From contig JAJDDY010000060.1 of assembly GCA_029260075.1 (NCBI GenBank), positions 1 through 32,006 on the forward strand: a stretch of DNA of 32,006 nt, given 5' to 3'. The DNA comes from Phycisphaerae bacterium. GTDB lineage: Bacteria > Planctomycetota > Phycisphaerae > UBA1845. Both the position numbers and the translations under genes were made by a program. The notes under the pieces are model-generated. The model was given only the letters and a program-made list of their open reading frames with translations. It did no database searches and was not told the DNA's origin. This document shows, in pieces, positions 5,033 to 31,919 of the stretch (positions within the stretch are counted from its first letter, which is position 1; each line of letters opens with the position of its first letter).

Positions 5033-5160
5033 CTCTGGGCTCGGGGTGGGCGGAACGATAGCTTCCTTCACTACGGTTTGCGACCATGCGATGGGTGGGC
5101 ATAGGCCGATAACCACCTTCTTCTGGCGGATCTAGTGACTAAATCGGCGAGAATAGTCGA

Positions 5161-5197: not shown

Positions 5198-5213
5198 GGA
5201 GAGGTGCCGTCTA

Positions 5214-5816: not shown

Positions 5817-5823
5817 TACGCAA

Positions 5824-6855
5824 ATGGATCAAGTTGCCCGTTTGGAGCCGCAGGATCGTTCCGATCTCTTCCGCGCCGCAGCCGAGTCGCGCGGCGTCAC
5901 TGTTGGCATCATCGAGAAGGACTTCTGGGTCTGCTGGGTGCTTCGCCGCATGTACACGCTCATGCAGTTGCCAGCGCAGATCCATTTCAAAGGTGGGACG
6001 TCGCTCTCAAAAGTGTTTGGCGTAATCGAACGGATGTCGGAGGATGTCGATCTTGTGATTGATCGCACCGGCCTCGGATTCACCGGTACAAAGGACCCGG
6101 CGACATCAGACCTCTCCAACAAAGCTCGCCAGCGACTCGTAGAGGAAATCAAGATCAGCGCCCGCGACTTCGCTCGGGATGAGTTGAGGCCCGCCCTTGT
6201 CCATGCATGCGCTGAGGCTTTGGGCGATGCAGCAAGCTCGACTTCGTGGGAAACCACCCTTGCAGAGGATGCTCCGGATGATCAGACAATCCTCTTCCGT
6301 TACCCCACGATCGAACAACCTCCCAAGTACTTGCGTGCCATGGTCCGCTTGGAGCTCGGGGCCCGCGGGAATCCCTGGCCGTCCGTGAAAGGGACGATTC
6401 GGCCATACGCCGCAGACCCGTTCCCGGACCAATTCGACAAACCCGATACCGAGCTACCTCTCGTTGTTTCAGCGCAGAGGACTTTCTGGGACAAGGCGAC
6501 CATTCTGCACAGGCTCCACCACCAACCCGAGGACAAACGGCTTGCTCCACGCATGGCCCGTCATTACTACGATCTCTTCCGGCTCGCGCAGCATGATCTG
6601 GGACGGAAGGCCCTCGCCGACACAGGCCTGCTTGCCGAAGTCGTCGAACACACTTCGCTGTTCTTCCCTCGCGCCTGGGCCAATTACGATCTTGCGAAAC
6701 CGGGATCGCTCAGATTAACCCCGCCGGATCACTTACTCGGAAAGCTTCGCGAAGATTACAACGAGATGGCCACCGAAATGATGTTCGGTGACGTTCCCGA
6801 GTTTGATTCCGTGATCGAAGGGTTGAAGGAAATCGAAACGTCGGTGAACGCGTGA
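5824..6855 (+). CDS. AbiEii/AbiGii-family nucleotidyltransferase toxin
   Basis: A 343-aa protein. IIEKDFWV (29-36), FKGGTSLSK (55-63) and MSEDVDL (71-77) are the hallmark motifs of the AbiEii nucleotidyltransferase family. GGTSLSK is the nucleotide-binding GS motif, and the acidic pair in EDVD binds metal. The helical C-terminal half includes RPYAADPF and a conserved FWDKATILHRLHH segment. Members of the family transfer nucleotides to RNA, and some are documented to modify tRNA; the target here is unknown. ATG 5824 follows the antitoxin stop by 7 bp; the frame is open from 5767. Length is normal and the active-site residues are present, so it should be functional. Confidence 0.9.
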   Translation: MDQVARLEPQDRSDLFRAAAESRGVTVGIIEKDFWVCWVLRRMYTLMQLPAQIHFKGGTSLSKVFGVIERMSEDVDLVIDRTGLGFTGTKDPATSDLSNKARQRLVEEIKISARDFARDELRPALVHACAEALGDAASSTSWETTLAEDAPDDQTILFRYPTIEQPPKYLRAMVRLELGARGNPWPSVKGTIRPYAADPFPDQFDKPDTELPLVVSAQRTFWDKATILHRLHHQPEDKRLAPRMARHYYDLFRLAQHDLGRKALADTGLLAEVVEHTSLFFPRAWANYDLAKPGSLRLTPPDHLLGKLREDYNEMATEMMFGDVPEFDSVIEGLKEIETSVNA

Positions 6856-17342: not shown

Positions 17343-17457
17343 GATAGCGACCACTATCGTGCCCTGGTCATAGGTCCGATAAGTGCTTGGTTACACGTCG
17401 ATCTTGCTTTAATGTAAAGAATGTTGTACGATATATCAGATAAGGACCACTATGATG
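17343..17457 (+). promoter_or_regulatory. hipBA promoter region with duplicated 19-bp motif
   Basis: GATAGCGACCACTATCGTG (17343-17361) recurs as GATAAGGACCACTATGATG (17439-17457), 15 of 19 identical and 96 bp apart; the second copy covers the ribosome-binding site and start of hipB. Between them TTGCTT (17404-17409) and TACGAT (17427-17432), 17 bp apart, form a likely promoter, with a small GATATATC palindrome at 17430-17437. HipB-type antitoxins repress at several operators, so this layout fits autoregulation. Confidence 0.5.
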
Positions 17458-17826
17458 GACGCAATAAATGGCAAAAACAGACTCAGCACGAGAGTGCCGC
17501 TGCCGGTTCGGCGGGCGCTGCACAAACTGGGCCGGGACATCCGCGATGCACGGCTGCGGCGGCGTATCGCCACCGCCATTATGGCTCAGCGAGCGTCTAT
17601 CAGTCGCACGACGCTGAACAAAATCGAGAAAGGCGATCCCAGCGTCTCGCTGGGTAACTATGCGTCCGTGCTCTTTGTCCTGGGTCTTTCTGATCGACTA
17701 GCCACGCTCGCCGACGTGAGGAGCGATTCGGTCGGTCTCGAACTCGACGAGGAGAGCCTGCCGCAGCGCATTCGCCGGCAGACCAGAGGAAGGCACTACA
17801 CTTCCGGCAGATGGAAGTCCGGGTGA
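17452..17826 (+). CDS. hipB: HipB-like XRE-family antitoxin
   Basis: A 124-aa protein. Residues about 25-85 form an XRE-type helix-turn-helix (LGRDIRDARLRRRI, MAQRASISRTTLNKIEKGDPSVSLGNYASVLFVLGL). The C-terminal tail is basic (RRQTRGRHYTSGRWKSG). AAGGA precedes two consecutive ATG codons. Its TGA overlaps the ATG of hipA by one base, so the pair is translationally coupled. HipB proteins bind upstream operators and neutralise the HipA kinase. The palindrome at 17318 and the repeated motif at 17343/17439 are candidate operators. Confidence 0.88.
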   Translation: MMDAINGKNRLSTRVPLPVRRALHKLGRDIRDARLRRRIATAIMAQRASISRTTLNKIEKGDPSVSLGNYASVLFVLGLSDRLATLADVRSDSVGLELDEESLPQRIRRQTRGRHYTSGRWKSG

Positions 17827-19091
17827 TGGACACGGAAGCCCTGGTCTACGTGGAGCTAAGCGGCGAGGCGGTGCTGGTGGGCCGTCTGTGGGCGCGCACG
17901 CGAAAGGGCCGTGAAAGCGCTAGCTTCGAGTACGACTCGGAGTGGCTCAAGCATCCCGAACGCTTCGCATTGGAACCCGCCCTGCAACTTGGACCAGGCC
18001 CGTTTCACACTGCTGCCGACAAGCCCATGTTCGGCGCGATTGGCGATTCAGCGCCGGATCGATGGGGACGTGTGTTGATGAGGCGCGCCGAGCGCCGCCG
18101 CGCGGAACGTGCCGGCTCCACGCCGCGATCGTTGCGCGAGATCGATTACCTCCTTATGGTGAACGACGAGGCGCGCCAGGGCGCTCTGCGCTTCGCACGC
18201 GAGCCCGGCGGGCCGTTCCTGGCGTCGGGCGATGCAACCCCCATCCCGCCGCTCGTCGATCTGCCGAAGTTGCTGTCGGCAGCCGAGCACGTCAGCTCGG
18301 AGTCGGCCAGTGACGAGGACTTGCGACTCTTACTGGCCCCCGGGTCGTCGCTAGGCGGCGCGCGACCCAAGGCGTCGGTCAGGGATAGGGACGGACGACT
18401 TGCGATCGCCAAATTCCCGCACAAGGACGACGACTACGATGCGGTGCGATGGGAGGGAGTAGCCCTGAGCCTGGCAGCAAAGGCGGGCATTGCCGTGCCA
18501 GAATGGCGCATCGAGGGGGTCGCCGAGAAGCCCGTTCTACTGCTGCAACGGTTTGACCGCTCCGGCGTCGCGAGGATCCCGTTCTTGTCCGCCATGAGCA
18601 TGTTCGGGGCGAGCGACCAAGAAACGCGAAGCTATATGGAATTTGCGGATGCACTCCGACAGCACGGTGCGTCACCTAGGAAAGACATGGAAGAAATCTG
18701 GCGGCGCCTCGTATTCAACGTGCTGATCTCCAACACCGATGATCACCTTCGAAATCATGGCTTCCTGTATGACGGACAGGACGGCTGGAGACTGGCCCCC
18801 GCATATGACCTGAATCCTGTTCCGGTCGACATCAAGCCGAGGATCCTGACGACTGCCATCGATGCGGAAGACAGCACTGCCTCGTTGGAACTTGCCCTAA
18901 GCGTGGCAACGTACTTCGATTTGGACGAATCCGACGCTTGTACAATCGCCGTAGAAGTCGGCCAGGCCGTACAATGCTGGCGTGAGGAAGGCTCGCGCCT
19001 CGGTATTGCTCGACGTCAGCTCGAACGCATGGCATCCGCGTTCGAACACGACGATTTGCGTTCGGCGCTTACGATGGCGCCGTGCAGCTGA
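17826..19091 (+). CDS. hipA: HipA-family serine/threonine kinase toxin
   Basis: A 421-aa protein. It has the HipA N-terminal domain (VGRLWARTRKGRESASFEYDSEWL), the P-loop-like segment PGSSLGGARPKA (172-183) containing the usual autophosphorylation serines, the catalytic loop ISNTDDHLRNHGFLY (301-315; D305 or D306 with N310) and the metal-binding APAYDLNP (324-331). All catalytic motifs are present, so it should be active. HipA of E. coli phosphorylates glutamyl-tRNA synthetase and induces growth arrest; the target here is not evident. The start at 17826 is chosen for the one-base overlap with hipB; the frame is open from 17811. Confidence 0.92.
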   Translation: MDTEALVYVELSGEAVLVGRLWARTRKGRESASFEYDSEWLKHPERFALEPALQLGPGPFHTAADKPMFGAIGDSAPDRWGRVLMRRAERRRAERAGSTPRSLREIDYLLMVNDEARQGALRFAREPGGPFLASGDATPIPPLVDLPKLLSAAEHVSSESASDEDLRLLLAPGSSLGGARPKASVRDRDGRLAIAKFPHKDDDYDAVRWEGVALSLAAKAGIAVPEWRIEGVAEKPVLLLQRFDRSGVARIPFLSAMSMFGASDQETRSYMEFADALRQHGASPRKDMEEIWRRLVFNVLISNTDDHLRNHGFLYDGQDGWRLAPAYDLNPVPVDIKPRILTTAIDAEDSTASLELALSVATYFDLDESDACTIAVEVGQAVQCWREEGSRLGIARRQLERMASAFEHDDLRSALTMAPCS

Positions 19092-19229
19092 GTGACGACT
19101 TCGAGTGGATATCGCCCAGCGCATGGAGGTCGCAGGACGGGGGTATCATTCCCTCCGCCCTGACCGTACTCTCTCAAGTTCCTCTCGTGCGGAGCCTTGT
19201 GGTGCACTTAAGGGTGGCCCTGGCCATGC

Positions 19230-19427
19230 TCACAGATAGGCGGCCCGCAGCTTAGCATCATCATCCTGCAGTTCGGACGCCACTCCGCTGTAGGAAACAC
19301 GCCCACCGCGTAGAACGTACACTCGATCGGCAACACTGAGGATTTCCCGTACCTTCTGTTCGACAACGAGAACGGAGAAGCCTTCTTCGACAGCCACTTG
19401 CCGAATACGCTCGAATGCCCGCTTCAC
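19230..19427 (-). pseudogene. LivF-like ABC transporter ATPase, C-terminal fragment
   Basis: The 65 residues read FERIRQVAVEEGFSVLVVEQ, then KVREILSVADRVYVLRGGRV and a terminal LRAAYL. This is the region after Walker B of LivF, the branched-chain amino-acid transporter ATPase. Walker A, the ABC signature and Walker B are missing. Similarity ends at about 19428, where the hairpin and IS110-like sequence begin. There is no ribosome-binding site and the only start is GTG. It looks like the stump of a transporter gene interrupted by a mobile element. Confidence 0.75.
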
Positions 19428-19444
19428 TAGATGGGGATGAAAGC

Positions 19445-19572
19445 CCGTTGCTCCCGGGTTAGATTATCGAGCGTCGTCTCGAAACTAGCCCATCTAACAC
19501 AAAGGAGCAACGGACATGTACGATTGTAAGGTTTTTGTCGGAACTAATTCTCTACTTGACTCCGGTCCGTAA
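19445..19572 (+). mobile_element. Remnant of an IS110-like element: nested hairpin plus broken transposase start
   Basis: Three nested inverted repeats precede an ATG. The outer arms are CCGTTGCTCC (19445-19454) and GGAGCAACGG (19504-19513), the middle arms TTAGAT (19459-19464) and ATCTAA (19492-19497), and the inner arms CGAG and CTCG (19468-19481). The ATG at 19516 opens an 18-codon frame MYDCKVFVGTNS, which resembles the first residues of IS110 transposases before the conserved D-V-S-K. The frame then stops. It abuts the LivF stump. The family call rests on a few residues only. Confidence 0.4.
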
Positions 19573-19584
19573 GTTCGGTATATG
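19556..19584 (+). promoter_or_regulatory. Strong sigma-70-type promoter
   Basis: TTGACT (19556-19561) and TATATG (19579-19584) with 17-bp spacing, among the best in the window. It points at the 21-codon ORF at 19620. Confidence 0.55.
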
Positions 19585-19619
19585 TTAGGCTTTAGCGTTT
19601 TTGGCCATGGAGACGACCG

Positions 19620-19685
19620 ATGCCGACGAAGCCTGACAACGACCACAAGACGCCGATCCCGAAGGTCATTCTAAGGGCGCTCTAG
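19620..19685 (+). CDS. 21-residue ORF with good promoter and ribosome-binding site
   Basis: ATG 19620 has GGAGA six nt upstream and the promoter at 19556-19584. The product, MPTKPDNDHKTPIPKVILRAL, is polar with a hydrophobic end and is not recognised. It may be the first codons of a gene lost at the border between the IS remnant and the phage-like region, or a genuine small peptide. Confidence 0.3.
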   Translation: MPTKPDNDHKTPIPKVILRAL

Positions 19686-19779
19686 GTTTCGCACCGCGAA
19701 TACAGGTTCCGCACCAACCATAGCGCGCAGAAAACTCCTGCATCGCCCAGCCCCATCCAAGAAACCGGCGATCAGAAGA

Positions 19780-19863
19780 TTATTTTCTTCGTTCCCGAAG
19801 CAGCTTCGATACAGCCTCGAACCACGTTCGATCGTGGCTCGATATGGCCGATCGCCAACTCAT
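19780..19863 (-). CDS. 27-residue ORF coupled to the end of the tail-like operon
   Basis: Its ATG overlaps the stop of the Cys-rich gene (ATGA), giving a basic 27-residue peptide ending KLLRERRK. It contains a strong hairpin (TCGAACCACG at 19817-19826 against CGTGGCTCGA at 19833-19842, one mismatch), which could instead belong to a terminator of the operon. Product unknown. Nothing recognised was found from 19686 to 19779. Confidence 0.35.
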   Translation of the reverse strand: MSWRSAISSHDRTWFEAVSKLLRERRK

Positions 19864-20315
19864 TCGTCGAGGTTCCAAGCACCAAACGCCGGGTCCGATC
19901 TCGGGCATTCCCAAGCGGCTCGCCGGTTCTTCACTTTGTTCAGGCTCGCGTACCGAACTTGCGGGCACGAGCAGCAGAGGCAGTACATTCGTCCGTCCGG
20001 ATGAAGGGTCATGTGCGGACAAGCCGCGCACTTTTCGTTCCGCGATTCATACACCTCGTCAGGCACAATCTTCGACGCCAAGACCTTGAGCATCGACTTG
20101 GCCCGTGCGGGCAGGTCGCGCCATCGCGTCCGTTGACCGCACGGCTGCCCGTGCTTAATCGCATCGCGATTGCTGATCGGTGGCGTCGTCGACGCCCGAG
20201 GCGGCGGTCGCGTCACGACAGCGTCGGGTGCATCTGCGCCGGGCGAGGCGACGCGTCGTTCGCGCATCCTCTGAACGGCGCGAGCTGCTCGCGATTTCAT
20301 CTCCTGTCGATCCAT
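19860..20315 (-). CDS. Cys-rich zinc-ribbon-like phage protein
   Basis: A 151-aa protein. Residues 1-75 are basic and low in complexity. The C-terminal third has C96-x2-C99, then C112, C114, C115 and C117 (YCLCCSCP), then C137, arranged as CAACPH...CLCCSCP...WECP. This pattern occurs in small uncharacterised phage proteins and probably binds zinc. The start at 20315 (MDRQEMKSR) is chosen because GGTGAGG lies just upstream and it begins 7 bp after the previous stop; the frame is open to 20513. It is close to the promoter-distal end of the tail-like operon. Confidence 0.65.
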   Translation of the reverse strand: MDRQEMKSRAARAVQRMRERRVASPGADAPDAVVTRPPPRASTTPPISNRDAIKHGQPCGQRTRWRDLPARAKSMLKVLASKIVPDEVYESRNEKCAACPHMTLHPDGRMYCLCCSCPQVRYASLNKVKNRRAAWECPRSDPAFGAWNLDE

Positions 20316-20322
20316 CAAAACC

Positions 20323-22413
20323 TCACCGACATATCGCTGTTGACGCGCCCGCAGTTCCACCGAGGAACAGCACAACCTCGCCACCAAAATGCTGCAGACC
20401 CGTGGGATCGTTCGTGTCATTGACTTGGCCAGGGATGACCAGTTCGTCCATCGCACAGAGTAGATCGTGGCACGGCTCGTTGAGAATCGCCCTGGCCTTG
20501 TACCCGAAGTCACCAGTCGCCCACGGTGCCGGACCGACCAAACCCTTCCAGGTGAAGTCGAGTGGCACGCGTGTGCATGTTCCGCTCGCCAAGATGAGGT
20601 ATCGATCCGGATCAGACAGTTGCGGGTTACACGGCGAGTTCACATCGTTCTTGACTTTGATCGGACAGTCAACGTCTTGCCATCCGGGCAGCAGTCGAAC
20701 CGAGAGCGTGATCCTGCAATGAAACACCGCCGCAATCCGAACGCCGCCACCGCCAGGATCACCCGAGACCCACAGGCTCGCCTCAATACCAGTCATCACC
20801 AATTCGGCAGGGAAGCGGCACGCCGTCTTGTACGGCTCGACCGTCACAAGTCCAACCACCGGCGCCTCCGCACAGTCGATGAAGATGTTCTCCCTCCACA
20901 GGTTCATTCCGGCGCCGTCATAGCTATGAAAGCGACCGCGCATAGTCAGTGCGAGCAGTCGATCATCGACCAACGCGAGTGCGGAATTGGCAAGCGTCAC
21001 ACACTCCGGCTCAAACTTGGGATAGCGATCCGCCGGTTCGTCCGTGGGCTCGGCGAACCGCATGTTGGCGACGAGGCCCAAGCTATCCAGTCGTATAATT
21101 TCATTGGAACCGTCTTCGATATGGAACCAACATGGGTCGGCGCCACATGAGGTCGACGTCGGCCCGGTCGAGAAGCAGTGCGGATCGAACACTTGGAAGC
21201 ACCTGCGGGCTATGGTGCTGAACGAGAAGTGCACGAAGGCAATGGGCACTCCGAGGTTCAGGAACATGGGTCGCGGGTCAAGGTTGGGATCGGCATCCGA
21301 CCCACAGTCGACGCCGGGCGTCGCACACCGCGAGAACAGACCTTGGAACACACCACCGTGGCACACACACTGCGACTCAGTCACTTCGATGCACTGATGG
21401 TTCGGCAAGCAGCACGCGCCCTTGGGATCAGTGAAGAACGGATCACAGTTCACGCATTCACACGACGTGCCGTCCCCCATCCACCGAGCGCCCGCCTGTT
21501 GTATTTCGCACATGTCCTTCGGCGTCGCGAAGCCGGCCAGTGCCGCGTCGTCCGGCGTGATCGTGATGCACGCACCATTACTCAGGCAACACGCGCCAGA
21601 CGTGTCGCGCGTCCGGAACGGCAGCACATCTGTACACTGAACACGCCATGACACACCGATGTCCACGTAGTGCCGCATGGTCGCACACAGCCACGTGCCA
21701 CACTCAGTGCATGACGGCCCTGATAACACCGGGTCGACCGTGGTGAAGACATTGTCTCGCGTATATGCTTTCACAACGCCGCCCGATTGCCCACCAGCCC
21801 CAAACGGATCGCCGTCACCGAAAATGTCCGCCATGCCCGGGTCAGGTATCACAGTCGCCCCGAACGACTCGTCGATCTGTCGGTCGCCGCCAATCGGAGA
21901 ACCGCCGACAATCGGCAGCCCCAGAGCAGTGCAGGGATGCGTCACCGTGTCCTGCTCGATCGTGCATCGCACATGCGGGTTCTCTTGCGCGACGCAGTAG
22001 ATACACTCTTGGCCAGGCGGAATCGGTCGCTCCAAGCACTCGGGCGTCGGCGGGTTCGGTGGCGGATTACAATCACCTGCGGCGGCGGCGTTGCTCTGAA
22101 TGGCGGCCCGAGCGATACAGTCGGTCGAGGTGAAGAAAATTACGATGTGTACGGCGAGCGTGGCACGCAGGGCACCGACCAGGTTATTCTGCACGGGCAC
22201 GAATCCTCCATACGCCAACTCGCCCTCGGTGCGCACGGACAATCCAAACTTCCCACGTCCCGGATTCATCACGAGGTCAGCGCACAGTCGTTTGCAACCG
22301 GAGATACCAACCTGCGTGCGATGAGCCGATACAAACCCCACATAGCCCACGCCGTCGCGCACAACGTGGGCCAGCCGGAAGTTCACTCGGGCGCATAGGT
22401 CGGGTAGTGCCAT
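20323..22413 (-). CDS. Large Cys-rich structural protein with planctomycete GACC repeats
   Basis: A 696-aa protein and the most host-like one in the operon. Two repeats begin at GACC (273-276 and 332-335). Their pattern is GACCLSNGACI...CEIQQAGARWMGDGTSCECVNC and GACCLPNHQCIEV...C-C-HGGVFQGLFSRC, matching the Cys-rich repeats frequent in secreted planctomycete proteins. The N-terminal 80 residues are not a signal peptide; a hydrophobic segment follows (RATLAVHIVIFFTS, about 83-96). The C-terminal half is beta-rich and Cys-poor, ending near LPGWQDVDCPIKV and LQHFGGEVVLFL. Genes on both sides are 2-7 bp away. It may be a tail adhesin that borrowed host surface repeats. Confidence 0.7.
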   Translation of the reverse strand: MALPDLCARVNFRLAHVVRDGVGYVGFVSAHRTQVGISGCKRLCADLVMNPGRGKFGLSVRTEGELAYGGFVPVQNNLVGALRATLAVHIVIFFTSTDCIARAAIQSNAAAAGDCNPPPNPPTPECLERPIPPGQECIYCVAQENPHVRCTIEQDTVTHPCTALGLPIVGGSPIGGDRQIDESFGATVIPDPGMADIFGDGDPFGAGGQSGGVVKAYTRDNVFTTVDPVLSGPSCTECGTWLCATMRHYVDIGVSWRVQCTDVLPFRTRDTSGACCLSNGACITITPDDAALAGFATPKDMCEIQQAGARWMGDGTSCECVNCDPFFTDPKGACCLPNHQCIEVTESQCVCHGGVFQGLFSRCATPGVDCGSDADPNLDPRPMFLNLGVPIAFVHFSFSTIARRCFQVFDPHCFSTGPTSTSCGADPCWFHIEDGSNEIIRLDSLGLVANMRFAEPTDEPADRYPKFEPECVTLANSALALVDDRLLALTMRGRFHSYDGAGMNLWRENIFIDCAEAPVVGLVTVEPYKTACRFPAELVMTGIEASLWVSGDPGGGGVRIAAVFHCRITLSVRLLPGWQDVDCPIKVKNDVNSPCNPQLSDPDRYLILASGTCTRVPLDFTWKGLVGPAPWATGDFGYKARAILNEPCHDLLCAMDELVIPGQVNDTNDPTGLQHFGGEVVLFLGGTAGASTAICR

Positions 22414-22415
22414 GA

Positions 22416-22916
22416 TTACGCGAAGCTACATCCACTGCTCGGTTCGTCCGCCGGCAACAGCGACGCGTCGCACTTGAGCGGAATCATCAGGATCCAGAAC
22501 CCACGCGCATCCAAGTCCGCCAGCAGCGGGACGGTGCGTTGCGATATCGGATTGTCCTTCATGATCGGATTGCCGTTGCCGTCCAAAACCGGATCGCCGT
22601 TCGCGTCCTCCTCCGGAACCTGCTCCGGCCAGGCGAACACTTCGTAGTCTTTGAAATCAGCCGTCTCTAACGGGTAGGCGGTCAAAATTTCACCAAACGC
22701 TTCGTAGTCGCCGATGACCGGCGGCACACTGTTGTACCGCACACGCTGAAACGTCATCCTGTTCGTGGCGCCGAGCTCGACCGAGCGAAGCACGACGCGG
22801 ATCCAGTTGTCTCGCGTAGGCGGCACCTCGCGCACAGACGGTTGATCAAGCGGCGTGACGCGTCCGGCGTTCAAACGACGCTGTCGATCGCGTTGCGCTT
22901 CCGAGTCAATGGGCAT
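22416..22916 (-). CDS. Phage operon protein, unknown function
   Basis: A 166-aa acidic protein between the FnIII-like and the Cys-rich gene, separated from them by 3 and 2 bp. It contains an Asp/Gly/Asn stretch, EEDANGDPVLDGNGNPIMKD (about 102-121), that looks like a calcium-binding or turn-rich loop, and a single C-terminal Cys pair. No family recognised. Tight spacing supports it being translated with its neighbours. Confidence 0.6.
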   Translation of the reverse strand: MPIDSEAQRDRQRRLNAGRVTPLDQPSVREVPPTRDNWIRVVLRSVELGATNRMTFQRVRYNSVPPVIGDYEAFGEILTAYPLETADFKDYEVFAWPEQVPEEDANGDPVLDGNGNPIMKDNPISQRTVPLLADLDARGFWILMIPLKCDASLLPADEPSSGCSFA

Positions 22917-22919
22917 CCG

Positions 22920-23678
22920 TCAAACTCCAATCCGGCTGTACGGAGCAATCTCCGCGCTGATCGCCGCCGACGACGCGGTCGGCGACACGTTGCGAACGAC
23001 GACCACATCCGTCGTGTCTTGGTTTTTCTCGGCCACGCCGCCACTGTTGCGACCGCGCACTGCAAACGCGTGACTGGACAGGTCAGCCAATGCGGCACTG
23101 GTGAACGAAAACGACACCTGCCGTGCGGAGTATGCCACGGTGTTCAGTGCGGTGTCTGAGTCGACCAGCGGCGTCTCATAGTCGATCGTGGCGACCGTCG
23201 GTCCGCTGAACACTTGGAAGTCGGTGGGATAGTCGCCGTGTCCATGAGCAACATACTCCCATTGCACAAGCACCTTGCCACCGGCGAGCGGTTCGGCGAC
23301 GACGCCAACCGGAGCGTTAGGCATCGCCGGTAGAATGCGGTTCACACCGGCGTCGAAGTCGATTCGAATCGGCGGGAACATCTCCGATATCATCCCGTTG
23401 CCGAGGAATCGCACGGCCGTGTATTGGTACGCTTGGTCAGCCTTGTGTGTCATGCCCGGGTAGTTTTTGATCTGCGTGTCCGCGCCGATCGCCAAGCCGC
23501 AGTACGTCCATGCATGCGGCTGCGGATAGAGCTCGCGGCGCAGCAACGCCACACCGCCTTGTCGCCACGGAAACGTCGCCCCGCGCGTCAGGGTCATCAT
23601 CAGCCCAAAGTGTGCGGGCTGATCCGCCTGACCGAATGGGTCACTAACGACTCGGTGATGGTCGACCATGTAACTCAT
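22920..23678 (-). CDS. Tail-associated protein with fibronectin III-like domain
   Basis: A 252-aa protein. The N-terminal half (LTRGATFPWRQGGVALLRRE, WTYCGLAIGAD) is not recognised. Residues about 120-215 have the strand pattern of an FnIII domain (APVGVVAEPLAGGKVLVQWEY, TDFQVFSG, ADLSSHAFAVRGRN). Such domains are common on phage tails and tail fibres. Its start overlaps the previous gene's stop by one base. Confidence 0.65.
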   Translation of the reverse strand: MSYMVDHHRVVSDPFGQADQPAHFGLMMTLTRGATFPWRQGGVALLRRELYPQPHAWTYCGLAIGADTQIKNYPGMTHKADQAYQYTAVRFLGNGMISEMFPPIRIDFDAGVNRILPAMPNAPVGVVAEPLAGGKVLVQWEYVAHGHGDYPTDFQVFSGPTVATIDYETPLVDSDTALNTVAYSARQVSFSFTSAALADLSSHAFAVRGRNSGGVAEKNQDTTDVVVVRNVSPTASSAAISAEIAPYSRIGV

Positions 23679-25609
23679 CAGACGCGTACGAACTCCACCT
23701 TGTCATCCGTCAAGCCCTGCTGCACGCGCTCCTTGTAGAGCGACGTCACACCGTCCGAGTCGAACACTTCAGTTTCTCCGGTAGCCTTGTCGGCCACCTT
23801 CTTCGTGGGTGCGACGGACTGCACCACAGTGTTGACCTGCACACCCATCGACCCGTTGGCCTTGTTGGCCGACTGCAACGCCGCCCACACCGTAGTGGCC
23901 ACCGTGGCGGCACTTGGCGCCGTGGCTCCGGGTATGGTGCCCAGTGGCAGGATGACGAACGTCGTGGTCGCGTCGGGCGCCGTCGCCCACGCTGCGGCCA
24001 TGGTCGCGACCTTGGTGCTGCCGACGTAACTGTTGACGATCTGTGACTGCCCGGCACCGGTGCCTCCGGTGAGTGCGATGATGGCGTGCTTGTAGTAGTC
24101 GTCCACGGCCGACGCCCCCGCGTCGAGCGTGATGGTCGAAGCCGCTCCGGCCTGCGCCGTGTTCGCACGTAGCTGTGTCTCGCCCAATCCACCGCCGCCG
24201 GCCGGCGCCTGAGCCAAAGCAGCGGCCGTATACCGCGACACCCCGGCGTTGTTCTCAATGAGCTCATTGAAAAGGGCGGTCGCCACGCCCGGTGGAACGG
24301 CCGGGTCATAGTCGACGGCGAGTAGATGATCCAAGTGGATGTCAGCCAGCGCCGTATCCACCTCCGCGTTAACCAGTGCCTGCGACAAGTCGTTGAGTGC
24401 ATCGAGCGTGTTCTTTGTGCCCGCAATCCCCGCGATCCGGTTGGACGCATCCACCGTGGCCAGTCCGCCGTTGGTGCCGGGCGCGATGTTCGGCACTCCG
24501 GTCGCGATGTTGCCCAGTGTCGTGCGGTCAGCGGCGGTGAAGTCCACCGCCGTCGTATCCACGATTTGCGCCACGCGGTTGAACTTGCGCGTCGCACCGC
24601 CCTCGATCACCGTGAAGGTGAAGACCAGTCCTTCGATGGGAGAGGCTGCGGTCATGTCGTACTCGATCCAATACCGCCCGGCTTCCAGTTGCACCATTGT
24701 GGTTTGAGCCACGTGCGTTGTAGGATGCTGAAGGTTGGCGCTGCGTGCGGTGCCTTCCTCATTGACGACCGCGACGGTCGGCGCCGAGTCCGGCTCTTCC
24801 ATGTTGCCCATCGTGTCGTAGTTGTTGAGGTACAGTTTGAAGCGCGTGCTACCACTGTCCGGTCGCTCCATCGCACCGGGCGCAGCGATCGTCGTGCGCG
24901 TGTTGTTTTGAATCGCCTGCACGTCAGCCAGGCTCGCCGCAAGACCGCCCACGTTCAGGTTGTCGAGGTACCCCGCTCGTAGGGCGGTCAGCCGCGCTTC
25001 CAGTTTCGTGATCAGATCGTTCACCGAATTCACCGTCGGCGATCCCGGCACGGCGGTGTTGAGTGCGGCGTCCACTTCCGTATTGACCTCGCCCTTCATC
25101 GTGGCACTCATACCACCGAGGCCGGTGAGTCCGGCACCGGCCACACCGATCGTTGTATTAGTCGTGTTGACCGTGGTGTTCATGCCGTCGATATCAAGCC
25201 CGCCGGCGTCGCTGATCGCCAGTCCGCCCGCCGCGTCGGCCGCAGCATTAGGCAGGGCGGTCATACCGCCGCGCACCGAATCGTCGAAGTCCATCGCGTG
25301 CTGGGCGCTGGCGTGCCCATATGTCTCGATCACCACGGCCTTGTCGAGCCACGCCTTGGCGCCCTGATCAACGACATACAGCACGATCCGTGCGGCCTGC
25401 ATTTCCGTGGCGGTGAGCACGATGCTGTAGCCTTGCCCCTCATCCGTAAACGCGTTGGTTGTGTTGGCCTCGACGCCTTCGTCCGTCATGACCTTCGTGT
25501 CACCGAGCGCATGAACCGCAGCCACGTTGAAGTTCACGCCGTCCGTGTTGTAGAGCTCGAAGTTGATCGTCGCCGACGCCCCGTATTTTCTCATGTGTAC
25601 GCCCTGCAT
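23678..25609 (-). CDS. Long phage tail/fibre-like structural protein
   Basis: A 643-aa, Ala/Thr-rich, low-Cys protein. The N-terminal beta domain (ATINFELYNTDGVNF) is followed by a fibrous Asn/Thr-rich part (DGMNTTVNTTNTTIGVAGAGL), a second beta domain (STRFKLYLNNYDTMGNMEEPDS) and the segment ALADIHLDHLLAVDYDP, which I recall from tail proteins of environmental phages. The C-terminus repeats Val/Ala strands. ATG 25609 directly follows the upstream TAG; an alternative start is MRKYGAS 15 bp inside. Likely a tail fibre or spike. Confidence 0.7.
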   Translation of the reverse strand: MQGVHMRKYGASATINFELYNTDGVNFNVAAVHALGDTKVMTDEGVEANTTNAFTDEGQGYSIVLTATEMQAARIVLYVVDQGAKAWLDKAVVIETYGHASAQHAMDFDDSVRGGMTALPNAAADAAGGLAISDAGGLDIDGMNTTVNTTNTTIGVAGAGLTGLGGMSATMKGEVNTEVDAALNTAVPGSPTVNSVNDLITKLEARLTALRAGYLDNLNVGGLAASLADVQAIQNNTRTTIAAPGAMERPDSGSTRFKLYLNNYDTMGNMEEPDSAPTVAVVNEEGTARSANLQHPTTHVAQTTMVQLEAGRYWIEYDMTAASPIEGLVFTFTVIEGGATRKFNRVAQIVDTTAVDFTAADRTTLGNIATGVPNIAPGTNGGLATVDASNRIAGIAGTKNTLDALNDLSQALVNAEVDTALADIHLDHLLAVDYDPAVPPGVATALFNELIENNAGVSRYTAAALAQAPAGGGGLGETQLRANTAQAGAASTITLDAGASAVDDYYKHAIIALTGGTGAGQSQIVNSYVGSTKVATMAAAWATAPDATTTFVILPLGTIPGATAPSAATVATTVWAALQSANKANGSMGVQVNTVVQSVAPTKKVADKATGETEVFDSDGVTSLYKERVQQGLTDDKVEFVRV

Positions 25610-26839
25610 CTAGCACGTCTCCCGTCTGCGTCGCAGCACCGTAATGTCAGACAATGGTTCCTGATGCAGAAACTGATTCCACATATCCACGCACTCGCCC
25701 GTCTTCTGTGCGGTGAAGTTGTTGACGATCCGAAACCCCTGCTGGCACCATTCCACCTCATTGGGCACATTGCCGTTGATGCTGTCGAAGATTTCGACGA
25801 CGGACAGGTTAGCTTTCGTCGTGGTGAGCGCCACACCGAAGGCCGGCGTCTCCACCACGGCGGGCAGATTCTTGTTGACGTTCGATTGCCGCCCATACCG
25901 GCCGAAGAACTTCATGTCCTGTCCGAACTGGGCGTTCGGTCCCGTGTGCCGCCACGTCCACTTGCCGCCCTTAATCAGGTAGTCGAAATCCGGATTGTCT
26001 CTCGGCCCGCCCACGCTGTTGGTGGTGTGGTCCGTCACGATGCCGATCTTCTGCTGGGTTTCTCCGACGATCACCAGCTTGGCGCTGTCACCGTCGTCGG
26101 CGGGCGTGTCCTGACACATCGCAAGCGTCGACGCCGAACCCAGCGTATCCTCGCCCGCGAAGTCGCCCGTGCTGCCCTGCGTGTCGGACTCGAACGAACC
26201 GAGCACCGTATAGTCACCCAGGAATGTATTGTTCGTGTCGATGGTCGCCCCGTCGTCGGTGAACACGTAGTACGATCCGATGAACACGTTGACGATGTCG
26301 GCGGGGTTGGAACCGTTCGTCCACATCGGCGCTACGTTCGTTGCGCTTCCGCTTTGGCAGTCCATCGAACTCAGGTTGACCACGAGCGATTCGCCAATGC
26401 GTAGTTGGAAGGCGCTGGTGTTGGACAGCTTGAACTTCATCTCCATCAGCGGCCAGGTGTCCACGGTAATGGCTCCGGCCACCGTCGCCACCAGGCTGTT
26501 GTTCGCATCGTACACCTTGACGTCGCCGTTGCTCTTGTCCCACTTCAGATAGACATGCGGCGACGCTTCATTGGCTCGGAAGAACTCCGGAATCGCCGTC
26601 GTCGTGCCCAGGCTGTCCCACCGAGCAAGGAATCCGATCGTGATCCAATCGGTACCCGGTGCGAACGTGTCCGCCACGAGCTTAGACGGGCTGGCGACGT
26701 TGGCGATCTTGTAGACGTACGTTTCCTTCGAGCTCAGCGGCGCCGGCGACGTCACCACGGTGACATCCACCTGCCCGGGTACGAGCGTGTGCAAGCTCCC
26801 GGAATTGGCGCCGTCAAAGTCTGGGAGCTTAATAGCCAT
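25610..26839 (-). CDS. Phage structural protein with lectin/LamG-like part
   Basis: A 409-aa protein. Residues about 1-215 show a beta-sandwich pattern (WITIGFLARWDSL, HVYLKWDKSNGDVKVYDANNSLVATV, AFQLRIGESLVVNL, VFIGSYYVFTDDGATID) similar to concanavalin/LamG-like domains that bind glycans. The remainder is unfamiliar and ends SDITVLRRRRETC. It is probably surface exposed on the tail. The spacing to its ribosome-binding site (GGAG, about 12 nt) is longer than usual. Confidence 0.6.
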   Translation of the reverse strand: MAIKLPDFDGANSGSLHTLVPGQVDVTVVTSPAPLSSKETYVYKIANVASPSKLVADTFAPGTDWITIGFLARWDSLGTTTAIPEFFRANEASPHVYLKWDKSNGDVKVYDANNSLVATVAGAITVDTWPLMEMKFKLSNTSAFQLRIGESLVVNLSSMDCQSGSATNVAPMWTNGSNPADIVNVFIGSYYVFTDDGATIDTNNTFLGDYTVLGSFESDTQGSTGDFAGEDTLGSASTLAMCQDTPADDGDSAKLVIVGETQQKIGIVTDHTTNSVGGPRDNPDFDYLIKGGKWTWRHTGPNAQFGQDMKFFGRYGRQSNVNKNLPAVVETPAFGVALTTTKANLSVVEIFDSINGNVPNEVEWCQQGFRIVNNFTAQKTGECVDMWNQFLHQEPLSDITVLRRRRETC

Positions 26840-26854: not shown

Positions 26855-28462
26855 CTATGTCGGCGGTGTTTGCGCTGCGATGAACCCGCCGATCACCACC
26901 GTCGCGTCCGCCGCCCCATTCGCCGCCTCGATCTCAAACGTCAGCGTCGACCCGGCGGCGACCACGTGGTTCTTCACCACCGACTGATCGAACGTCGCCG
27001 CATCAAGTATGTTGATCATCTCCGACTGGTTCGAGAAAATGCTCAACCCGTCGTCCATGATGTCGATAATGCACGGCCCACCCGCAGGCGCCGTGCCGAG
27101 CGATCCGTAGGCCTCCTTGATCGTAAACGCGATCGGGCAGTAGAGTTTGATCTTGGTCACCGCCACGGTGAGCGCACCGGGAATAACGACGTCGCGCGTG
27201 TAGGGAATCGCCTCGCTCGTTCCCGCCAGGTCCGCCGCATCCATGTCCGACCGACCCGTCTCCACCCAGAACGATCCATCGAAACGCAGGTCGAGCGTGC
27301 GCAATCTGTCGGACAACTTGTAGTCCTTGCCGTTGGCAAGCCTGATGTTGCCTGTCGCGTGCTTGACCACGACTACCTCGCCGGTCACGTTGGGCACGAG
27401 TCGCACCAAAGTTCCTCGGGTTATCACGCCGCTGATCGTGTCCAGGTCATCGGTGGCCGCAGCCGCTTCGGTCGCCACATGGGTAAACGTCTTGGTGATG
27501 TTGATGACGCCCGCCGCCATGGTCGCCACGGTGTTGTCCTCCATGTCCAGCAACCCAAGGTCGGCGATGCCGAACCCGGCGGCGTCCAGGTCCGTGGACA
27601 ACAGATTGGGTGTAGAGAAACTCCGGAACAGTTCCCTTAGATTGGCGCCGTCAGAGATGAAGGCGATGAACTTGGTGGTGTCGTCCATCACATAAGCACC
27701 TTGCGGCCCTGTTAAGTTGGCTTGGATGGTCACGGTCCTGGCGGCGTCGGCCGCCTGCAGAATATAGATGCGTCCGAAGTCACCGGCAGTAAACGCGCCG
27801 AAGCCGGTCAGCATATCGGACGCGTCGCCGTTGAACGTGTCGACCAGGATGTAGCTCGGCTGGCCGCTAAGCGTGATCGCACCGGACGCGCTGAGCACCA
27901 CCGTAGGCGGATCGGCCAGCCCCAGGTTTCGCACGTTGTCAATGTCCTGGTTGTTGAAGTCCACCAGTGCCGTCGGGTTGAACAGCCACCAACTCGTGAT
28001 CGCTCCCACCTGATAGTTCTCGGGCCGTCGATCGGTCACCGTCGTCACCGTCGTCGCATCGGTCACCACCGTCGCTAACTTGACATGGTCACCCACCGGC
28101 CAGCCCGACGTGCCCACGGTCAGCGTTTGCGTCGCGTCGAGCGATAGGTAGTTCGTGGCGCTGGCGGTCATGGCCACACTGGCATCACCCGCGTAGGTTT
28201 TCGAGGCAGCGGCGATCGAGTACTGCATCTTAAACACACCAACGTTTAGCCCGCTGTCCAGATCGATCACCAGCCCCTGCGCCGCAGCGGCCACCAGCGT
28301 CATGAGATTGTTCTCCAGGTTCATCAGCCGCGCAAACGCTGAGGGTGCGGAGTTTTCGTCGGCACCGAACGTCTGGTGTTTGATCCCGGTACCGGGATCC
28401 GTCGTACTCCCCAGCGCTTCGGCGCTTGCTTCCACCAATTCCGACATCACCGGATTCGCCAT
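26855..28462 (-). CDS. Phage tail-like structural protein
   Basis: A 535-aa, Thr/Ala/Asp-rich protein with few charged residues and almost no Cys. The N-terminus (SAFARLMNLENNLMTLVAAAAQ) then YLSLDATQTLTVGTSGWPVGDHVKLATVVTD resembles the start of tail fibre or appendage proteins of siphophages. The central part contains short repeated beta motifs (SGAITLSGQPSYILVD, DDLDTISGVITRG) and the C-terminus is a beta domain ending FIAAQTPPT. AGGAG precedes the ATG. Confidence 0.65.
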   Translation of the reverse strand: MANPVMSELVEASAEALGSTTDPGTGIKHQTFGADENSAPSAFARLMNLENNLMTLVAAAAQGLVIDLDSGLNVGVFKMQYSIAAASKTYAGDASVAMTASATNYLSLDATQTLTVGTSGWPVGDHVKLATVVTDATTVTTVTDRRPENYQVGAITSWWLFNPTALVDFNNQDIDNVRNLGLADPPTVVLSASGAITLSGQPSYILVDTFNGDASDMLTGFGAFTAGDFGRIYILQAADAARTVTIQANLTGPQGAYVMDDTTKFIAFISDGANLRELFRSFSTPNLLSTDLDAAGFGIADLGLLDMEDNTVATMAAGVINITKTFTHVATEAAAATDDLDTISGVITRGTLVRLVPNVTGEVVVVKHATGNIRLANGKDYKLSDRLRTLDLRFDGSFWVETGRSDMDAADLAGTSEAIPYTRDVVIPGALTVAVTKIKLYCPIAFTIKEAYGSLGTAPAGGPCIIDIMDDGLSIFSNQSEMINILDAATFDQSVVKNHVVAAGSTLTFEIEAANGAADATVVIGGFIAAQTPPT

Positions 28463-28471
28463 CTCAAACTC

Positions 28472-28954
28472 CTATGCAAAATCGAACGTCAGCACACTGC
28501 TCGGCTGATCGAAGCCATTGATCGTCAACGAGTCCAGTGGGTCGGGGTCGGTCCCGCTCACCACGATCGTCGTCTCGACAAGCGCCGCCGATTGCACCAC
28601 ACCGTCCGCACCGATCGCCTGCACCGCAAACTTCCACGCACCGAACGCCGCCGGCACATCCACAACAACGGTCACAAACGGCGGGGCCGTACCCACCGGC
28701 GTAACGCCCACCCGCGTGCGACCGATGCCGCCGCGTGGCCGTGCCGCGCGACTGTCACCCACGCGCCCCACACCAACCGGTCGCCGCCCCACACCGCCCA
28801 GGCGATCGCGCCCCGGAAACACATCGTGCCCCCGAACGAGCAGCGGTTTCGTCAGGTCGATCGCCCCCGTACCGCCGTCGGTAAACACCTGCAACCGATC
28901 ACCCGCATCCCACCCCTCATCCACCGGAACCTTGAATCGTATCGCCTGCCTCAT
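28472..28954 (-). CDS. Small tail-like protein with Gly/Arg-rich insert
   Basis: A 160-aa protein. Residues 1-45 and 90-160 form beta segments (RLQVFTDGGTGAIDL; FVTVVVDVPAAFGAWKFAVQ) of Ig-like type. Between them, at 49-86, lies a stretch of Gly, Arg and Val (GGVGRRPVGVGRVGDSRAAR) that looks disordered or linker-like. The ATG overlaps the upstream stop by 4 bp (ATGA), and the downstream neighbour follows after 9 bp. Function unknown. Confidence 0.6.
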   Translation of the reverse strand: MRQAIRFKVPVDEGWDAGDRLQVFTDGGTGAIDLTKPLLVRGHDVFPGRDRLGGVGRRPVGVGRVGDSRAARPRGGIGRTRVGVTPVGTAPPFVTVVVDVPAAFGAWKFAVQAIGADGVVQSAALVETTIVVSGTDPDPLDSLTINGFDQPSSVLTFDFA

Positions 28955-31452
28955 TCCGTCCCCACCTCCGGCGCCCCGCGCAGGTCCGACAGATGCAGCA
29001 CCGTCCGAAACCCCGCACCCGGCGAGTTGATGTACTCCGTGCGAATGATCATCGGGTTGCGGTCGAAGTGCAGGTCGAGGCCGGACGCTCCCTCGAACAC
29101 GTCGCCGATTCGGTAGCTCGGGTCGATCCAGAACGACTCCACCGACCCGCTGACAACGTCCTGCACCATCTCGCTCGACGTATCGAGTGCGAAGTGCACG
29201 AGTCGTATCTTGTCGTTGCGGTCCTCGAACCGTGGATCGCCGTCGACGGCCTGCGTGTTGAGCGAACTGTTCTGTCCGCGCCGATTGCGCACCACGAATC
29301 GGTCACGCCCGAGATCAACAACCTGTGATCGCCGTCGCGTAAACGATGCCCCACCAGGCGTCGCGGTAAAACTCAGCCGATCGTCACCGCGTATCGTGCA
29401 GGTGACCGACACCATGAAACTGGGCTCACCGAACAGGTCACCGTTGTTGTCGTCACAGTTGTCGGTGTCCTTCCCGAACCCGGTCAGCCCCAGGTAGGCT
29501 TCAATCATTCGCACGCCGTTCGCCGGAAACTCCGGCTCACTATTGAGCAGCGGACTCTCAAGCAGGTTCGGTTCCGTCAACGTGATCGACGCACGGTCCG
29601 GGTCGATGTGTACCCCGCCCGAGTAGCGCACCCACTTCGTCGAGGCCAACGCAGTGCGTGGATCGGTCTCCGAGAAGTTCAGGCGCACCACAGGACGACG
29701 ATCACCCGTCAGTTCAATGCGCCCGATCAGTTCACCGAAAGGCCGACGACGCGGCACCCAGTCCTTTGATTGAAACAGATCGCCGCCGATGGCCGGGTCG
29801 ACCAGAACAAGCGTGGCGTTAGCAAAATCGGGTGGCCCGACCTCAGGGTCTGCCTCATTGAAATACGGGCTGTACAACGCCTTAGACCAACCGATCCGTT
29901 CATAGTCCGACGTGCCGTCCGCGTTGAACCACCGCCAGTCATCCGGAAAAATCCACAGCCGGCCCACGTCGGCCACGCTCGCATGGTCAGGGTTGTTGCC
30001 GTGGTAGACTGACAGGTCCGGCTTGGGTTGCCCGTTCGCATCGAACTGGCTGAACTCATCCCGCCAGAACTTCATGGCCGCCCGCTTCATCGTCAGGATT
30101 TTGCACGCGCGGGTCTGGTCGGTTTCATCCGCGTCGATCATCGCCTCCGTCACGTCCAGCTTGTCCGTCGGCATCCAACCCGGCCGCAGCAGCAGCGTCA
30201 CCTCAAACAGTTGATCGCCGCCGAGAAATATCGACCGGTTGATCCCCCGGCGATCGATGGTCAGGTCCACCTGCGCCGCCCGATTCGCGATCGCCACGTC
30301 GCGATCACTGCGCCCCGTGCCGTCGCTAAACGGCGCCTCGCGGGCAATGTCGAAAAGCTTCGGCTTACCCATCCGCCGCCCGCGCCGCGCCGAGACACTG
30401 CCCGAATCTTCAATCGCCTCGAACACCCGCAGGAACCAATCCACGCCGCCGCTGATCGCGCGGATCGGGATTTCGTAATGCAGCCCGGCGGATTCGGTGA
30501 TGGCCGCGATCGCCTCCTCCGCGTTGGTCGACGTGATGGACAGGTCGTTCACCCGCGCGGTCAACAGGCGAACAATCGGGTCCGTCGACGACAGCCCTCC
30601 GGTCCGATCGCTCGGCGGTTCAATCTCGGCCAGCGACTTGGTGTCCAAAAGGAACTCGTCCGGCGACACCCCGTCCGATTGAAACACATAGAAGATCACC
30701 ACATAGCGCAGCGCCTGGGCGAACGTCCAGAACTTCGCCTCAGGCGCGTTGTCCTCAGTAAACAGATGCACCGGCTGTCCGCCCGCCTTATCCACCGGGA
30801 AGGCCGTCGCCGTCCGGTTCGGCAGTCCTTGGGCGTTGAAGATCGCTGGCAGCGCCGAAACGTTCCGGGCCAGCGTGGCCGACTTCTCGGGATCCCACGG
30901 CCCGAACCGCTCGAGCGGATCGAACATCAGCAGCCGCCCGGTGATCTGCGCCGCATCGCTACCCCGCAATCGTTCCTGCCCCTCCGACAAACAGGTGCAG
31001 TCCACCTCCTGCGTCTTCTCGTTCCAGATGATGCGCGACGTCTGCGGGAACCCCTGAAAGTACACCACGCGGTCTCTGCCTATCCCCTGCGAAATGCGTA
31101 TGCGCCGATCCGGGCTCAGTTGCCGTATCAGATCAGCGAAGTGCTGGTCACCCACAGAACCGCCAACAGTGAGTTTCGAGGCATCCAGTCCGGCCGCGAT
31201 GGTCGCCGTCGTATCGCCCCCGTCCATCGCTTCGGTAATGCCACGCCAGTCGAACACATTCGAGGCGATGTACCGGTTGCTGCCGAAGGACGTTTCCAGC
31301 CGCAGCGTCACCGGCGGATGCACCCGCTGCAGCGCGGTGGGCGCATTGCTGACGCTCTTGAGCGACGGACCAAGCGGCGAGCTCCCTAGCCCAGACCCTG
31401 GTCGCGGCGCCGAACCCGGCAGCTCACCCGCACTGGTTCCCGGCAGCGCCAT
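28951..31452 (-). CDS. Large tail hub/baseplate-like protein
   Basis: An 833-aa protein, the largest in the operon. The N-terminal 45 residues are Pro/Gly/Ser-rich. Residues about 50-170 (VTLRLETSFGSNRYIASNVFDWRG, YFQGFPQTSRIIWNEKTQEVDCTCLSEGQERL) resemble the first domain of phage tail hub proteins. The rest is beta-rich, with WRDEFSQFDANGQPKPDLSVYHG and an Asp/Asn-rich CDDNNGDLFGEPS. It overlaps the previous stop by one base and the next gene by 4 bp. A hub or tail tip is the best guess, from size, position and composition; no diagnostic motif was found. Confidence 0.6.
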   Translation of the reverse strand: MALPGTSAGELPGSAPRPGSGLGSSPLGPSLKSVSNAPTALQRVHPPVTLRLETSFGSNRYIASNVFDWRGITEAMDGGDTTATIAAGLDASKLTVGGSVGDQHFADLIRQLSPDRRIRISQGIGRDRVVYFQGFPQTSRIIWNEKTQEVDCTCLSEGQERLRGSDAAQITGRLLMFDPLERFGPWDPEKSATLARNVSALPAIFNAQGLPNRTATAFPVDKAGGQPVHLFTEDNAPEAKFWTFAQALRYVVIFYVFQSDGVSPDEFLLDTKSLAEIEPPSDRTGGLSSTDPIVRLLTARVNDLSITSTNAEEAIAAITESAGLHYEIPIRAISGGVDWFLRVFEAIEDSGSVSARRGRRMGKPKLFDIAREAPFSDGTGRSDRDVAIANRAAQVDLTIDRRGINRSIFLGGDQLFEVTLLLRPGWMPTDKLDVTEAMIDADETDQTRACKILTMKRAAMKFWRDEFSQFDANGQPKPDLSVYHGNNPDHASVADVGRLWIFPDDWRWFNADGTSDYERIGWSKALYSPYFNEADPEVGPPDFANATLVLVDPAIGGDLFQSKDWVPRRRPFGELIGRIELTGDRRPVVRLNFSETDPRTALASTKWVRYSGGVHIDPDRASITLTEPNLLESPLLNSEPEFPANGVRMIEAYLGLTGFGKDTDNCDDNNGDLFGEPSFMVSVTCTIRGDDRLSFTATPGGASFTRRRSQVVDLGRDRFVVRNRRGQNSSLNTQAVDGDPRFEDRNDKIRLVHFALDTSSEMVQDVVSGSVESFWIDPSYRIGDVFEGASGLDLHFDRNPMIIRTEYINSPGAGFRTVLHLSDLRGAPEVGTE

Positions 31453-31919
31453 TACGCCAGCACCCTAAAGGTCAGTTCCACGTCCATGATCGCGCCCCAC
31501 GTCGAACCCTTGCGCCGCCGCGACGTCTGTCTCCATTCCGAAAGCACCGCCTTTTCGCCGAGCACGTTACCGTCCGAGTCGGTCAGCTTGGTCGGCTTGA
31601 TCAGCGACGGGTTCGGCTTAATGAGTCCGCCGTGCAGCCGCTCGTTCATCTCCACGATGATCGCGTTCATCGTGGCCCCGTCCTTGGCAAATATTGTGCC
31701 CGCCCAGCGATGCGTCGCCCCATCCGAGCCCAGGTTATCGCGATACACCACGTTGCTCTGCGGCAACTTGTGCTCCACCGCCGCCGGTTCATCGCGGCCG
31801 ACAAGCACCCGCACCGAAAACAGCGCATCCGACGCCGTGTTGCGTGCCCCCCCGCGCTGACCCAGGTCGAGCACCGGAACACCGCCGGAACTGATACCGA
31901 ACTCAGGTGGCGCAGGCAT
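31452..31919 (-). CDS. Small tail/baseplate-adaptor-like protein
   Basis: A 155-aa protein. The middle (ATHRWAGTIFAKDGATMNAIIVEMNERLHGG) followed by a short linker and the C-terminal IMDVELTFRVLA strand resembles small hub-adaptor proteins that sit before the hub gene in phage tail operons. Its ATG overlaps the stop of the gene entering from the right (TGATG), and its own stop overlaps the next ATG (TAATG). Confidence 0.55.
   Translation of the reverse strand: MPAPPEFGISSGGVPVLDLGQRGGARNTASDALFSVRVLVGRDEPAAVEHKLPQSNVVYRDNLGSDGATHRWAGTIFAKDGATMNAIIVEMNERLHGGLIKPNPSLIKPTKLTDSDGNVLGEKAVLSEWRQTSRRRKGSTWGAIMDVELTFRVLA

Follow-up and report, generated by a model that had tools for sequence, protein, structure and literature searches.

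Cysteine-rich GACC repeats inserted in a protein at the end of a putative prophage tail operon from a Phycisphaerae bacterium

Two cysteine-rich repeats, each beginning with the residues Gly-Ala-Cys-Cys (GACC), are encoded in the window, by which we mean the whole stretch of DNA analysed here (32,006 nucleotides, Phycisphaerae bacterium). They lie in the middle of a 696-residue protein, w696, at the end of a putative phage tail operon. In our best reading, the pair is a disulphide-rich surface module that would be common to secreted planctomycete proteins and to phages, and that may have been grafted onto tail-end proteins. By analogy with the Ig-like domains of other phages, the grafted module probably serves attachment. 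To our knowledge, the ways in which phages recognise planctomycetes are poorly understood.

Results

GACC repeats of w696

The carrier protein and its two repeats are encoded as follows.

20323..22413, (-) strand: w696, an open 696-residue ORF that closes the tail operon and encodes the GACC pair
21442..21597, (-) strand: GACC repeat 1, divergent, residues 273-324, located by a profile search of the genome
21304..21420, (-) strand: GACC repeat 2, residues 332-370, located by the same search

A preliminary description of this DNA had placed two GACC repeats at 21304-21597, in the middle of the 696-residue protein, and these coordinates proved exact: the motifs begin at residue 273 (position 21597) and residue 332 (position 21420). 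When the residues of w696 were shuffled, at least two GACC motifs arose in 8 of 20,000 trials. The genome search used a profile that itself includes both window repeats. An independent profile, built from 33 repeats in ORFs of related genomes and containing neither the window repeats nor the repeat of a second prophage (G030, described below), also found both, with 37.3 bits for repeat 2 (i-E 1.6e-10, Z = 1000) and 12.6 bits for repeat 1 (i-E 0.0087, Z = 1000).

The typical spacing of the family, read from the repeat alignment, is CC-x5-C-x7-C-x13-C-x4-C. The GACC motif followed by four further cysteines in order is clear in repeat 2 and can be traced with shifts in repeat 1, which has a long insertion, displaced cysteines and a length of 53 residues versus about 39 in a typical unit. 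Judged by profile score and cysteine order, both repeats qualify as members of the GACC Cys-repeat family as defined here. Among the eight best-scoring other units, none for repeat 1 and one for repeat 2 came from the window's own genome, and on these scores the phage repeats were not recently copied from any of the units compared.

The operon and its relatives in prophages

Eight further tail-operon genes and a small CxxC gene accompany w696.

31452..31919, (-) strand: w155, tail operon gene
28951..31452, (-) strand: w833, tail operon gene matched in 31 of 200 related genomes, counting the window's own, and frequently located directly behind head genes
28472..28954, (-) strand: w160, tail operon gene
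26855..28462, (-) strand: w535, tail operon gene
25610..26839, (-) strand: w409, 68% identical to a gene on contig C4, from the same genome, that comes after a Mu-type head module
23678..25609, (-) strand: w643, tail operon gene with matches in 16 of 200 related genomes (own included) and on one IMG/VR contig
22920..23678, (-) strand: w252, tail operon gene matched in 32 of 114 genomes from the order, counting the window's own
22416..22916, (-) strand: w166, operon gene for which BLAST found no relative, in a place like that of a 152-residue gene of the G067 prophage
19860..20315, (-) strand: w217, small CxxC protein with ATG at 20315, after w696

The cysteine content of w696 (42 residues, 6.0%) compares with 0-1.2% for the other eight tail-operon genes. 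No credible Pfam or PHROGs match was obtained for any of the ten operon ORFs (best E 0.024), and the window, which is the whole contig, ends at 32006 with no head gene on it. The designation as a phage tail operon, already used in the preliminary description, is therefore owed to relatives: it gains support from synteny with a prophage in genome G067, but none from database matches of the window by itself.

On contig C7 of G067, a terminase, a Mu-type portal (Pfam E 3.7e-62), gpF, the gpI protease, the gpT major head protein, an adaptor and neck genes were recognised with PHROGs and Pfam. These head genes are followed by relatives of w155, w833, w535, w643 and w252 in the same order as in the window, and BLAST found no relatives of w160, w409 or w166 at this locus. 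The w252 relative is followed by genes of 152, 258 and 536 residues and then by a 137-residue gene and a 203-residue CxxC gene, and the 536-residue protein is a relative of w696 (25%, 1.1e-16). From this gene order, the relatives of the window operon appear to belong to phages with Mu-type heads. In the window's own genome, four Mu-type portals are encoded on other contigs, one of them followed by a head module and the w409 copy. Because of the synteny of the relatives and the presence of portals and a head module elsewhere in the genome, the window operon is most simply interpreted as the tail module of a prophage, in which w696 is the last of the large genes.

Chromosome-like genes occupy the left part of the window, including HipA, AbiE, a sigma-54 regulator and others. 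The stretches 4343-6855 and 17452-19091 hold AbiEi/AbiEii type IV toxin-antitoxin genes and an HTH and HipA-like pair, which adjoins the prophage end.

Proteins of the w696 type were detected with a four-row profile in 4 of the 114 genomes of the order, namely in the window, G067, G010 and, as a contig-edge fragment, G009; against 392 genomes of the phylum, the four-row alignment matched the window alone. Outside the repeats, w696 matches the proteins of the G067 prophage and of short contigs from G010 and G009, and no relation of this part to chromosomal secreted proteins was found. Among the three relatives, recognised phage genes surround that of G067 only, and three ORFs beside the G010 relative gave no PHROGs matches. 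The place between a w252-type gene and a CxxC gene is seen in the window and in G067, with only the CxxC side visible in G010 and G009.

The preliminary description had stated that homologues found only as chromosomal secreted proteins would speak against a phage gene; a relative of w696 was found in the G067 prophage. Its suggestion that the gene is a host cargo is rejected, because this relative of the carrier, matching the rest of w696, occupies the same place in G067. Viral and genome collections contained no relatives of w696, of the G067 protein or of the four-row alignment, and viral contigs none of w833 or of the G067 portal. In isolate phage records, neither the operon proteins w696, w833 and w643 nor a typed consensus pair nor three IMG/VR GACC proteins had a match, in a search where the BLAST low-complexity filter may hide Cys-rich matches.

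A compact head-tail cluster recurs in several families of the order (L114-L119, L121, L122, L124, L126, L127 and L129-L132). It comprises a Mu-type head gene, an adaptor, a gene of about 280 aa, a w833-like gene of about 715 aa, a gene of about 163 aa, w535-like and w252-like genes and a gene of about 117 aa. Apparently without a long tape-measure gene, this cluster might represent a small phage or an element resembling a gene transfer agent. In the 17 of 38 compact-cluster loci that were annotated, where several contigs stop early, the only match to w696 was short and weak (L121, 8e-4). A weak 25-residue match to w696 was also seen at L276, and the last gene of G022 (522 aa) is Cys-rich and matches neither w696 nor the GACC profile.

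Insertion of the GACC pair

Comparison with the repeat-less relatives divides the protein as follows.

21298..21621, (-) strand: insertion relative to the repeat-less relatives, about residues 265-372, from a deletion scan and alignment
20326..21297, (-) strand: C-terminal part of w696, residues 373-696, shared with the repeat-less proteins of G067, G010 and G009 (fragment)

The GACC pair is absent from the other three rows of the w696-type alignment (G067, G010 and G009). In the deletion scan, stretches of 60-140 residues were removed along w696 and the products were scored with a profile built from the two repeat-less relatives that are complete. The best of 802 deletions, that of residues 265-364, reached 59.2 bits versus 43.6 bits for intact w696. 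Although 208 of the 802 outscored the intact protein, only seven exceeded 47.1 bits, all of them of 100 residues with starts at residues 257-281. The part after the insert is clearly homologous to the relatives, with none of 300 shuffles reaching the local score against either of two proteins. The part before it is weakly alike, with 18 and 59 of 300 shuffles reaching the respective local scores. On this evidence, the GACC pair behaves as an insertion, like a module added to w696.

Start and N-terminus of w696

22205..22209, (-) strand: GGAGG, candidate ribosome-binding site just before GTG codon 72 (22200)

No clear ribosome-binding site precedes codon 1 of w696, unlike GTG codon 72, and because GGAGG stands directly ahead of the latter, codon 1 is doubted as the start. 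Translation perhaps begins at codon 72 (22200), which would give a protein of 625 aa. Read from this codon, w696 opens with a hydrophobic stretch ending ARA-A, which could be a Sec-like signal peptide. Its hydrophobic 11-mer, at residue 84, has a mean Kyte-Doolittle value of 2.41 and five other phage-type proteins compared gave weaker values of 0.86-1.84; this measure of export is crude, and the hydrophobic segment is N-terminal only with the codon 72 start. The first ~97 residues of w696 were also considered as the tail of the 258-residue gene of G067, a candidate rejected for want of significant similarity (E about 2). A simple scan of 19000-23800 for promoter-like sigma-70-type sites found none, versus 1.4 expected by chance. 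Two single-sequence fold predictions had mean pLDDT values of 45.3 and 33.3, too low for a fold search.

GACC proteins of the host and related bacteria

The preliminary description had likened the repeats to those of secreted planctomycete proteins, and the comparison bears this out: the same family occurs in long, mostly secreted-type ORFs of the window's own and related genomes. With 150 of 199 candidates scored, the window's genome contains at least 58 repeat-profile matches at E 0.001 or better, two of which are those in the window. By the crude hydropathy measure, a hydrophobic 11-mer scoring 2.15 or more occurs among the first 90 residues in 12 of 13 distinct complete host GACC ORFs, the exception being 137 aa long. 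Pfam searches with seven host examples gave two sub-threshold dockerin matches and nothing for the other five, and NCBIfam gave nothing for six examples. The pattern used against the genome collection lacked one residue of the consensus (Cx6C in place of Cx7C), and its 13 matches, 6 of them from one isolate, are therefore a biased sample; all are from Planctomycetota or Phycisphaer- entries and all are profile-positive.

GACC proteins in other phages and the CxxC partner gene

A search for GACC proteins in prophages, as proposed in the preliminary description, yielded contig C268 of G030 and IMG/VR contigs, among them L274. The G030 contig encodes a terminase (1.6e-46), a gpT head gene (1.4e-18) and tail genes. 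After its relatives of w643 and w252 comes a 533-residue protein with two C-terminal GACC repeats, and then a CxxC gene. The independent profile gave 37.5 bits for the second of these repeats and 3.6 bits for the first, and the 533-residue protein matches w696 in the repeats alone. Contig L274 encodes a 680-residue protein in which eight motifs read GACC or GSCC (profile E 1.4e-45), and whose gene is overlapped by a CxxC gene related to w217 (37%, 4e-12). An 869-residue gene that precedes the GACC gene, with two genes in between, looks like a tape measure, and two other L274 genes had no match in PHROGs.

A GACC protein thus stands directly before a small CxxC gene in the window, G030 and L274. 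By BLAST, w217 is related to the L274 and G009 CxxC genes; the counterparts in G067, G010 and G030 were recognised by motif and alignment only. The small CxxC protein is possibly a zinc-ribbon helper. Small proteins with CxxC, YC, C.CP and CP motifs were observed after GACC proteins or repeat-less Cys-rich tail-end proteins in the window (19860-20315) and at L084, L088, L092, L093 and L274.

Among 35 places marked by w252, some on stretches ending after 1.4-3 kb, two (window and G030) have a GACC protein in the operon position. The same two carry a CxxC-motif gene by a strict pattern, which misses the G067 variant. Two further w252 places (L238 = G095 and L242 = G097, two species of one genus) have two GACC ORFs each, 1.7-7.4 kb downstream, which may be host genes.

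The IMG/VR scan with one degenerate pattern selected 15 contigs, and all 15 contain ORFs with GACC domains (i-E 0.01 or better). Not all of them are independent cases: the proteins of L249 and L253, for example, have identical scores, as have those of L251 and L258. PHROGs matched 6 of 10 neighbour proteins tested on five of the IMG/VR contigs, including a baseplate wedge on two contigs (1.6e-80 and 6.5e-119), a tail protein, a head closure protein and a terminase. The Mu portal was found in none of 11 IMG/VR records with GACC loci, and these records are therefore other phage types or fragments.

Very large ORFs with numerous Cys repeats were observed at L246, L249, L252, L253, L254 and L256; their lengths are 848-2015 aa, two being truncated, and their Cys content is 8.7-12%. 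The large Cys-rich ORF of L249 lies near a baseplate wedge gene, and its protein has no match in isolate phage records. Collagen-like stretches of the GPTGPTG type are combined with GACC-type repeats at L251, L258 and L259.

The preliminary description had also proposed that a phage copied host repeats. This stands as only one possible direction of transfer, because the 15 IMG/VR contigs encode GACC repeats, which are thus not confined to planctomycete proteins. Taken together, the comparisons indicate that GACC repeats in phages are neither host cargo nor a one-off.

Discussion

Proposed role and alternatives

We see an even chance that 21304-21597 is a GACC pair inserted in a virion-associated protein at the end of a prophage tail operon, where it would act as an exchangeable, disulphide-bonded adhesive module. 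From its gene position, w696 would be a late protein of the virion, located in the tail-tip or baseplate region. Upon lysis, its cysteines would oxidise, and the oxidised repeats would form compact, protease-resistant knobs on the particle. Such knobs could be exchangeable adhesive modules that bind the host surface or matrix, comparable to phage Ig-like domains. A broader proposal is possible, if doubtful: phages may repeatedly equip their tail-end proteins with GACC disulphide knobs, next to a dedicated gene for a CxxC helper, and so engage the surface network of host GACC proteins, a shared adhesive currency.

Export is the chief doubt about placing w696 in the virion. The prophage could encode a protein with a Sec signal that is made in lysogeny or late infection and exposed on the host in the same way as native host GACC proteins, for example to block superinfection or to mediate adhesion. 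The GGAGG ahead of GTG codon 72, the hydrophobic stretch (2.41) followed by ARA-A, the 12 of 13 host GACC ORFs scoring at least 2.15 by the same crude measure, and the formation of disulphides outside the cytoplasm are all consistent with this account. We nevertheless consider it rather unlikely, as the five other phage-type proteins score only 0.86-1.84 and w696 lies inside an operon, where the sigma-70-type scan gave no site against 1.4 expected, itself weak evidence. Virions assemble in the reducing cytoplasm, and the cysteines of w696 might therefore bind zinc or another metal there instead, in which case the repeats would be a structural element inside a virion protein, with assistance from the CxxC protein encoded next door. 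The adjacency of CxxC genes to both GACC and repeat-less Cys-rich proteins would fit such a role, but secreted-type proteins use the same repeats, and the closest, albeit weak, matches among solved structures are to iRhom proteins, whose Cys-rich region is extracellular; metal binding thus seems unlikely to us.

It is quite improbable that the pair is a passenger, a host gene fragment brought in by chance recombination and functionless for the phage. Donors are abundant, given the 58 repeat matches in the host genome (two in the window), and the insert is missing from the three relatives. However, the repeats are in frame, have kept GACC and further cysteines and differ from the host units used for comparison, and GACC proteins precede a CxxC gene again in two other phages. 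Finally, w696 might be a chromosomal secreted protein and no part of a phage, as secreted-type ORFs in these genomes commonly contain GACC repeats and the window contig has no head gene. This candidate was rejected as extremely improbable, since the operon and the carrier are syntenic with the G067 prophage and the G030 GACC protein shares its contig with a terminase and head genes.

In the adhesive reading that we prefer, the existence of natural repeat-less relatives and of a recurrent partner gene makes the attachment role directly testable. The GACC module, nameless in Pfam and NCBIfam for the examples tested, is present in secreted-type bacterial, prophage and uncultivated-phage proteins, and its profile can be used to annotate long Cys-rich phage proteins now labelled "hypothetical".

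Comparison with known systems

Among the matches listed by a literature search, with subscription journals mostly outside its reach, no title dealt with this repeat in either planctomycetes or phages. In two articles (PMC6339383, PMC7379824), the subjects are six-Cys repeats and phage-linked gene transfer, and the repeat spacing given there differs from that of GACC. The Cys-rich repeats of rusticalin, as described in PMC6339383, are short six-Cys units like the GACC repeats, but have the spacing Cx6Cx6-7Cx8Cx7CC, which the GACC repeats do not follow.

The secreted-type GACC proteins of Planctomycetota share with w696 a unit of about 39 aa that contains GACC and then, in order, four more cysteines. 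They differ in having between 1 and 21 repeats and, in most cases, a hydrophobic segment at the N-terminus, whereas w696 has two repeats in mid-protein on another scaffold. Tailed prophages with Mu-like heads (portal PF06074, gpF, gpI, gpT) are represented by G067, where the head module lies upstream of the same tail operon; in contrast, the tail genes of the window have no Pfam or PHROGs family and its head genes are off the contig.

The best PDB matches of the GACC profile are chains of iRhom1 and iRhom2, with two stretches each and weak sequence E-values of 0.013-0.98. One stretch covers profile positions 3-37 and keeps every cysteine in register; the second aligns over the first part only. 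The Cys-rich region of iRhom is extracellular, as noted above, but these are animal membrane proteins and the match is weak; a remote kinship between the bacterial GACC repeat and this region is possible. Phage Ig-like domains, which differ from GACC repeats in fold, cysteine content and phage group, offer a likeness of another kind: they are modular, optional additions to structural proteins and are thought to aid attachment, the part that we presume for the GACC pair of w696.
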